Source: Phycisphaerales bacterium
GTDB taxonomy: Bacteria; Planctomycetota; Phycisphaerae; Phycisphaerales; SM1A02
Assembly (NCBI GenBank): GCA_030748575.1
Contig: JASMLR010000004.1
Span: 1-64,000, forward strand
Length of the DNA stretch: 64,000 nt
Direction: 5' to 3'
Shown here: positions 52,898 to 56,481 of the stretch, in pieces
How positions within the stretch are numbered: the stretch's first letter is position 1
Layout of the letters: each line of letters begins with the position of its first letter
Notes under the pieces: generated by a model
Told to the model about the DNA's origin: nothing
Database searches by the model: none
What the model saw: the letters and a program-made list of their open reading frames with translations, nothing else
Translations under genes and position numbers: made by a program

Positions 52898-52900
52898 GTG

Positions 52901-53476
52901 ATGGGCGAGGATCCGATTCCGCTCGAACCACTCGGCGTACCTGACCCGCCGCCGCTGCCCGGTCGCGTTCGCATCGACGGCACGTTTGATGATGCCGTTG
53001 ACGCGCTGGCAGCCGATCTTCTGACCTGCGCGTTGGACGCTGTCGAGGCTCGGCAGCAGTTTTCGCTGGCGATTTCCGGCGACCGCGTGCTGGAGCCGCT
53101 GTGGCTGCGGTGCATGCTGGACCCGGACCTTCGGGCGTTCCCGTGGTCCCGGACGCATGTGCGGGTGCTGGGCGAGGTGGATCGGCTGTGGCTGAACGAG
53201 GCGCTGGTGACGCCTGCGGGCATCCCGCCCGCCCAGGTGCATGTCGGGCCCGCGAGCGTGGGGCCCGCGAGCGCGGGGTCAGGAGCGGACGTGGACTGCG
53301 TCGTGGCAAGCGGGGCAACGGCCGCGGCCGTCATGGGCGGCGGGACCGCACCGCAGCAGGCCACGCGGCTACTCATGCTCACCGAGGCCGCCAGCCTCGA
53401 TGCCACGCTCAGGCACGTGGAGGCCAACCCCGCCCCCTGGGCCCAAGTCGCCAGCCGCCTCTGCTGGTACCTCTAA
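52901..53476 (+). CDS. Degenerate 6-phosphogluconolactonase-like protein
   Basis: 191 aa. ATG 52901 lies 3 bases after the ctaA stop, so it is probably co-transcribed. The pattern FSLAISGDRVLEPLWLRCM, then AFPWSRTHVRVLGEVDRLWLNEALV, follows the Pgl/NagB fold (SGGxTP, then WxxVHxFxxDER). The key residues are altered: GG-x-T-P is replaced by GDRVLEP, and the DER motif by GEV. Activity is therefore doubtful, and a structural or regulatory role is possible. A Gly/Ala/Pro-rich segment (GPASVGPASAGSGAD) lies in the middle. The stop codon forms the edge of an inverted-repeat element. Confidence 0.55.
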   Translation: MGEDPIPLEPLGVPDPPPLPGRVRIDGTFDDAVDALAADLLTCALDAVEARQQFSLAISGDRVLEPLWLRCMLDPDLRAFPWSRTHVRVLGEVDRLWLNEALVTPAGIPPAQVHVGPASVGPASAGSGADVDCVVASGATAAAVMGGGTAPQQATRLLMLTEAASLDATLRHVEANPAPWAQVASRLCWYL

Positions 53477-53584
53477 CCCCCGACCGCCGGTCACTTTATC
53501 TCCTTGTACACCAACAACTTACGAAACCCCCGATTCGCTAAGTCCTTGCGGCGCAAGCACATAAAGTGACCGGCGGTCAGGGGT
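53476..53584. repeat. Structured inverted-repeat element between two convergent genes
   Basis: 24-base terminal inverted repeats (53476-53499 and 53561-53584) match at 23 of 24 positions. Each contains the palindrome GACCG-C-CGGTC. The 61 bases between hold two more hairpins, CTTACGAA/TTCGCTAAG (about 53518-53542) and CTTGC-GGC-GCAAG (about 53544-53556). The left arm starts at the last base of one stop codon, and the right arm contains the stop codon of ruvX. It resembles a REP/MITE-like palindromic element, or a bidirectional terminator built from one. No target-site duplication is evident and no second copy is seen in this window. Confidence 0.75.
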
Positions 53585-55102: not shown

Positions 55103-55723
55103 GTGCTTGCCCGCTTGACCGGCCAACTCGAATCCGTGTGCGATGACCGCGTCCAGGTGGCCGTCGGGCCGATGCTGGTCGACGTCTACGTCCCCGGCAG
55201 CGATGTCGATGGCCTGCACGGGCGGGTGGGCGAGCCGGTCACGCTGCACACGCTGCTCGTGCTCGAAGGCATCGGTCAGGGCACGTCCATGGTGCCCCGA
55301 CTCATTGGCTTCGCTTCGCCTCAGGACCGGGCGTTCTTCGAACTCTTCACGACGGTCAAGAACATCGGCCAACGCAAGGCACTTCGAGCGTTGCAGGCGC
55401 CCGCGCGGGACCTCGCGGCGGCCATCGCCCGCAGAGATGTGACGTACCTCGTTGCGCTGCCGGAGATCGGCAAGCGTACGGCCGAGACGATCATCGCGGA
55501 ACTCTCGGGCAAAGTGGACGCCTGGCTCAGCGGCGCTGCGGCGACCATCGAGCCCGGCCCCGGCCCCGCCAGCGGCACGCCCGCGGCCGATGCCGTCACG
55601 ATGCTTGTCGCGCTGGGAGAGCGGCCCGACGCGGCCCGGCAGTTGGTCGAGCGAGCTGTGGCGAGCCATCCCGAACTCGACTCGCCCGAAGACATCCTGT
55701 CGGTAGTGATGGCCTCGAGGTGA
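55103..55723 (+). CDS. ruvA: Holliday junction DNA helicase subunit RuvA
   Basis: Binds four-way junctions and loads RuvB, 206 aa. GTG 55103 was chosen because the protein then begins VLARLTGQLES, aligning with the family MIxxLxGxL start. Domain I ends near LIGFASPQDRAFFELFTTVKNIG. The two helix-hairpin-helix motifs are VKNIGQRKALRAL and LPEIGKRTAETIIAEL. Domain III (ADAVTMLVALGERPDAARQLVERAV) binds RuvB. No ruvB or ruvC is adjacent, and recJ and ruvX elsewhere in the window are the only related genes. Confidence 0.93.
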   Translation: MLARLTGQLESVCDDRVQVAVGPMLVDVYVPGSDVDGLHGRVGEPVTLHTLLVLEGIGQGTSMVPRLIGFASPQDRAFFELFTTVKNIGQRKALRALQAPARDLAAAIARRDVTYLVALPEIGKRTAETIIAELSGKVDAWLSGAAATIEPGPGPASGTPAADAVTMLVALGERPDAARQLVERAVASHPELDSPEDILSVVMASR

Positions 55724-55728
55724 GCCGT

Positions 55729-56481
55729 TCAGCCGAGGATCAGCGGCATGGGTTCATCGACGCAGGGCCATCCGCTGGCTGCGGCAATGCGGCGGCGAAG
55801 GTCGTCCGCGACTTCGGCAGCGGCGTCTGATCGGTCAAACCGGATCGGCTCAAGAAACTCGACGCGACTTCGCCCTCGCCCGGCAATGGACGCGAGCATG
55901 CCGTCGACGTCCGGAGTGCCCGAGATCCAGCACGGGACAACGCGGGCGCGGGTGCGGGCCGCCAGCAGCCCGACGCCTTCCTGAAACGGCCGAATCGACC
56001 CCGGCGGCCGGGTGATTCGTCCCTCCGGAAAGACGCCGATGACGCCGCCCGACCGGAGTATGCCCATGGCCCTGCGGAGCGCCCGGGCGTCCGCGTCGGC
56101 ACGGTTGACCGGAATGACGCGAACCAGCCGCCAGATGTCTTCGGTGCCGGCGGCCATCATGTCCCGAGCCATCATCCAGTGAATCATGGTGGACGTTGCC
56201 GATTGCACCAGCAGGGGGTCAACGCCCCCCGTGTGATTGGCCACAATGATCACCGGTCCGGCTGCCATCGCCTCGTTCAGGTGGGCGACGCCGTGAACCT
56301 CCAGGTGCTGCCGCCAGCGGAGCCACCGGGTGGACGCCCACCACGCCAGCCCGAGCGTCGCGTCGCCGCCCGGACCCCTGCGCAGCCGGGGCACGATGCA
56401 GAGCCACCACCCTGCAGCCAGCACGGCCCATCCTGCCGGAATCCACAGCCAGAGCCAGGTCGCCGGTTCGGTCGCCTCCAT
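55729..56481 (-). CDS. PlsC-family 1-acylglycerol-3-phosphate acyltransferase-like protein
   Basis: Membrane acyltransferase, 250 aa from ATG 56481. The N-terminal helix ([18 protein letters not shown]) is followed by the block I motif [13 protein letters not shown] (H-x4-D) and block [24 protein letters not shown] is the block IV region. The motifs are intact, so lysophosphatidate or a related acceptor is likely, but the substrate cannot be read. A TAGGGT box sits 7 bases before the start (56494-56489). It is convergent with ruvA (5 bases apart) and divergent from carB. Confidence 0.87.

Follow-up and report, generated by a model that had tools for sequence, protein, structure and literature searches.

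Several described systems resemble the locus reported here. REPINs were described in Pseudomonas fluorescens SBW25 (Bertels & Rainey 2011, PMC3116915), and populations of them have been reported to persist with single-copy, vertically inherited RAYTs (PMC8049555). For class 2 HUH motifs, the published hydrophobic residues are L, V, I, F, Y and M (PMC8266576, PMC6006769). Among GTAG REPs, placement at gene 3' ends with a stop codon supplied by the element is already published, and some TIRtron repeats are self-complementary (PMC3733652). REPs have already been described in planctomycetes; our full-text search of the open-access literature for REPs in Phycisphaerae found nothing. We propose that the feature studied here, in a Phycisphaerales genome, is very probably one copy of a non-autonomous mobile element of the REPIN type, most likely copied by a single-copy RAYT. 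The family is of the REPIN/RAYT kind already described, with a hairpin sequence that is new. The sequence-only reading of this locus knew of no described family with this sequence, which holds within the search made.

The window, a 64,000-nucleotide stretch from one contig of this genome, carries an inverted repeat at 53476-53584 with 24-base arms matching at 23 of 24 bases, exactly where it had been noticed from the sequence alone. Its invariant core (53482-53578) consists of two 18-base arms that match at 18/18 bases around a 61 bp spacer, and the 24-base arms are this core arm plus the outermost bases. The arm motif is expected only 0.03 times per shuffled window. The features are as follows.

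52898 to 53476, plus strand: 6-phosphogluconolactonase-like gene (PF01182 match below its cut-off)
53477 to 53481, no strand: outer left flank CCCCC, part of the 24-base arm and outside the conserved core
53482 to 53499, plus strand: left arm GACCGCCGGTCACTTTAT, holding the small hairpin (T)GACC-GCC-GGTC(A); the same in 13 of 15 aligned copies from this genome
53500 to 53560, no strand: variable, palindrome-derived spacer of 61 bp; among the 15 aligned copies, pairwise identity is 55% in spacers against 97% in arms
53561 to 53578, minus strand: right arm, the left arm inverted
53579 to 53584, no strand: outer right flank AGGGGT, overlapping the RuvX stop and last codons
53577 to 53969, minus strand: ruvX (130 aa), its TGA stop formed at the right arm edge

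The two stop codons lie as the sequence-only reading had placed them. The longer left arm starts with the final base, an A, of the TAA stop (53474-53476) of the 6-phosphogluconolactonase-like gene, which ends 5 nt ahead of the element core, and the right arm holds TCA at 53577-53579, the reverse complement of the RuvX TGA stop. RuvX has the same length as in congeners in which the gene was called in full. The possibility that the outer flanks are coupled beyond the 18-base core, as they would be after insertion into pre-existing palindromes, found no support, pairing there being no higher than in shuffled copies (p = 0.33). In single-strand RNA folding the window element forms a single long hairpin with an energy of -61.8 kcal/mol (z = -8.4 against shuffled sequence). 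The small palindrome read in each arm is real; the further inner hairpins read between them are weak in the window copy and lack support from compensatory changes across copies (77.8% of cells paired versus 77.6% when shuffled), with repeated C-G/G-C swaps at just one inner pair (17/19 paired). A search of Rfam with the window element gave sub-threshold matches only, the best of them to microRNA precursor models, of a sort that long hairpins tend to match.

The arm is not confined to the window. Allowing up to 3 mismatches, it occurs 20 + 22 times in the 2.38 Mb genome against 1 + 1 for the control, nearly always as inverted pairs 78-79 bp apart, and a covariance model gives 36 strand hits, or about 18 elements. 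These pattern and model searches define a family of about 18 copies of a 96-97 bp element, with the consensus spacer half CTCCTTGTnnnACAAGnACTTACAAAA, and remove the prospect, raised earlier, of a one-off terminator. Tandem or rearranged copies occur at C33:242962-243199, C44:181441-181642 and C2:67956-68074. At C66:131053-131151 (L082) two unpaired direct copies of GACCGCCGGTCACTT, 84 bp apart, adjoin a GC-rich stretch. The C6 copy (G000, L069:4936-5406) is crossed by a crcB-like frame, in whose predicted product of 156 aa residues 119-151 come from the element; a second crcB-like gene begins immediately after that element. Direct repeats at element edges, examined as target-site duplications, are no longer than in shuffled pairings. 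No pair of copies in this genome has near-identical spacers and no movement was seen, from which we suggest that activity of the element may be low or past.

A neighbouring REP-associated transposase, which had been named as a sign of mobility, is present. The sole Y1_Tnp gene of the genome (C33:55438-56082, minus strand) lies between element copies at 55359-55454 and 56142-56237, in a chromosomal slot between the prolyl-oligopeptidase (POP) and RND-transporter genes. Its stop codon falls within the former copy; the last RAYT residues (PPVT-stop, L076:5039-5055) come from the flanking element's arm, where ATAAAG is changed to TTCAAG. The reading frame is intact and the 214 aa product carries the motifs PNHWH and YIHWNP (Y-x3-NP), with a C-terminal tail that resembles those of other RAYTs; the HUH, tyrosine and asparagine positions do not vary across 22 relatives. 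A profile search matches E. coli TnpAREP 4er8 (E 1.6e-8), and the AlphaFold model (pLDDT 82) has as its best fold match the same structure, which shows a RAYT in complex with a REP hairpin (E 2.6e-7). The best NCBIfam family is REP_Tyr_transpos (E 3e-18), at a score of 66, below the curated cut-off of 80. With its HUH motif, Y-x3-NP, Y1 fold and single copy, the gene has the features by which a RAYT (TnpAREP) is recognised.

The slot is conserved beyond this genus. The nearest RAYT relative (49% identical) belongs to the Phycisphaerales MAG ALOHA_ZT_36, of the same family and another genus, and again sits between RND-transporter and prolyl-oligopeptidase genes. Beside it, on one side of the gene, is a homologous element with a changed arm hairpin, TGACCCGTCGGGTCA, the arm being TGACCCGTCGGGTCATTTAT, and five pairs of this changed-stem element occur in that genome, which we take to be both G071 and G151 from their equal contig numbers and coordinates. 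In a third genus the RAYT is flanked by TGACTCCGAGTCA palindromes. The hairpin has diverged along with the RAYT. Many planctomycete RAYT relatives (33-40% identical; L123-L144) have AAAGGTGTCAGGAA-type inverted repeats on their flanks, in place of which L122 has CTAC-tagged (GTAG) palindromes.

Within the genus, G005, G006 and G007 each have a single decayed element and no RAYT at the POP/RND slot (those of G006 and G007 judged by eye, the latter very degraded), G008 has neither, and in G001 the oligopeptidase gene is not directly followed by an element. A Y1_Tnp search of the draft genomes G002-G008 gave no match. The covariance model finds 0-11 elements per congener, of two subtypes and with mostly degraded arms; where a RAYT of the type found here is missing, copies are fewer and decayed. 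The single G002 copy, at a contig edge and in a position common with a copy in this genome, has intact arms. A second arm subtype, CGACCCGnCGGGTnATTTAT, occurs in congeners with unchanged spacer motifs (L197, L205, L213, L224, L211, L212), which suggests that arms and spacer may evolve separately. The RAYT of G001 is another one of the genus and lies between copies of a different inverted repeat, AAAGGGGTCAGGCCTCTTTG (L115:1170-1192, 1907-1929); we rejected it as the driver of the G001 element copies on account of that other repeat. The simplest reading of these comparisons is that the RAYT is old, was vertically inherited and was lost in several lineages, the arms probably remaining mostly intact only where it persists. 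The slot provides a natural experiment, in which RAYT and repeat either diverge together or, where the RAYT is missing, the repeats decay, and the comparison bears on what keeps REPIN/RAYT repeat populations alive.

At the window junction the convergent genes of five congeners (G001, G002, G003, G005 and G006) end about 1-7 bp apart and the element is absent, these being draft genomes, 83-97% complete, in which absence is not proof. Conservation of the element at this junction in relatives, which had been considered earlier, was not borne out. Two further sites are empty, that of C55 in G007 (stops about 2 bp apart) and that of C11a in G001 (about 9-10 bp apart), and in both the native stops are already TGA. 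At least one copy of this genome is common to three congeners. Because the congener junctions are empty, insertion is the best reading of the window copy, loss in the other congeners being less likely than gain.

Insertions are concentrated at gene ends. Counting tandem copies once each and including one degraded copy, this genome has 17 insertions, 11 between codirectional, 5 between convergent and 1 between divergent genes. For fifteen of the 17, a gene 3' end is no more than 12 nt away, as is true of 5.5% of intergenic positions in the window (binomial 2e-17, approximate because the genes come from our own codon-usage caller). Twelve gene ends take their TGA stop from the CT|GA at an arm edge, on both sides in two convergent gene pairs. 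One explanation is stop-codon homing, in which the RAYT system directs insertion to CT|GA, onto native TGA stops, and protein lengths stay unchanged; if true, this would make the family a stop-codon-homing mobile element. We consider this quite improbable. The alternative is that elements insert at random and are then filtered, whether through selection or through gap deletion, and selection against other sites suffices as an explanation, because TGA makes up 86% of stops here and GTAG REPs provide a published precedent.

The analysis shows the repeat family, its linkage to the RAYT, the empty sites, the conserved slot, the parallel divergence of hairpin and RAYT and the 3'-end placement; we infer recognition, cleavage and movement by the RAYT, and any effect on RNA. 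In single-stranded DNA the arm would fold into a TGACC-GCC-GGTCA hairpin, the inner side of which carries the conserved ATAAA(G). The RAYT (HUH/Y1, 214 aa) most likely recognises this hairpin and would cut and join single strands at the CT edge, the element being copied to new sites with no target duplication. Insertions would survive chiefly beside gene 3' ends, at little cost to the host because the CT|GA arm edge can act as a TGA stop; at the window site, the arm-edge TGA would have left RuvX at full length. Once inserted, the hairpin may also have a side effect on mRNAs coming from either side, protecting or ending them. Counted against this explanation are the absent GTAG tag, the inner hairpins without general covariation and the NCBIfam score below its cut-off.

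Chance, a MITE of the DDE type and a pure terminator are all disfavoured as readings of the feature. The sequence-only reading had allowed for either a mobile palindromic element or a dedicated bidirectional terminator; many intergenic copies, a RAYT between two of them and empty orthologous junctions bear out the former. Under the latter, a host-made hairpin would end both convergent transcripts and its copies would be kept by selection, as the very stable hairpin, the strong 3'-end preference and arms far more conserved than spacers might lead one to expect. However, no T-run follows the full stem, the small hairpin of the right arm, read on the minus strand, alone has a weak T-rich tail, at chance rate, and terminator-like sites are not in excess. 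The same 18-base arm recurs at unrelated genes, twice around the RAYT, one copy lies inside the crcB-like frame, orthologous junctions do without the element, and arms decay in congeners lacking this type of RAYT. A dedicated terminator is not needed, and we judge it very unlikely. The label MITE/REP-like also holds in part, REPIN being apt and MITE less so, given a HUH/Y1 enzyme and no target-site duplications. That the element is a MITE moved by the transposase of a DDE-type insertion sequence would suit its short length, inverted ends and several copies, yet the duplication is absent, each arm is a palindrome in itself and the transposase linked to the element is of the Y1 type, so that this origin is extremely improbable.

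A further possibility shares the origin proposed here and differs on present activity: the family may be a relic, now immobile, with arms kept only as stop codons and 3' hairpins. The highly diverged spacers, the sharing of a copy with three congeners and the use of the arm's TGA at gene ends are all consistent with this. Against it are the congener sites that lack the element, at the window junction and elsewhere, the intact RAYT frame and the restriction of near-invariant arms to the genome with this type of RAYT, and we regard a relic as unlikely. We retain the REPIN most likely copied by a RAYT as our explanation, which extends REPIN/RAYT systems to a Phycisphaerales family whose hairpin has no GTAG tag.

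The family agrees with REPINs in having two inverted REP copies with conserved ends, a more variable spacer and a fixed length, in its mostly extragenic elements (one lies inside the crcB-like frame), and in the repeats of its own that lie on either side of the RAYT gene. As in SBW25 (PMC3116915), conserved inverted palindromic ends enclose a looser spacer in an extragenic, RAYT-linked element of about 100 bp; unlike there, the arm sequence is another one, copies number about 18 rather than hundreds, no GTAG-type tag is present and the spacer is itself palindrome-derived. We do not file it as a GTAG REP because the GTAG/GTRG tetranucleotide is absent at the hairpin foot: the consensus halves have AACT outside and ATAAA(G) and GTAAG inside. 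It shares with GTAG REPs (PMC3733652) a position within 20 bp of 3' ends, between convergent and codirectional genes, and an edge that supplies the stop, which is TAG in those elements and TGA here, on both sides in the two convergent pairs. As in the E. coli REPtron (PMC8266576, PMC6006769), the RAYT gene is flanked by its own repeats, CT marks the edge of the element, as it does the sites cut by TnpAREP, and the enzyme has Y-x3-NP and HUH motifs with 4er8 as best structural match; it differs in that the hydrophobic residue of the HUH motif is W, which falls outside the published class 2 list, and in that the hairpin lacks a GTAG foot. TIRtrons/TIRYT (Di Nocera 2013, PMC3733652) likewise combine a RAYT-like gene with flanking non-GTAG inverted repeats and a moderate repeat family. 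As far as the text of that description shows, this sequence family is absent from it, and unlike in TIRtrons, the gene here lies between complete 97 bp elements with two arms each.
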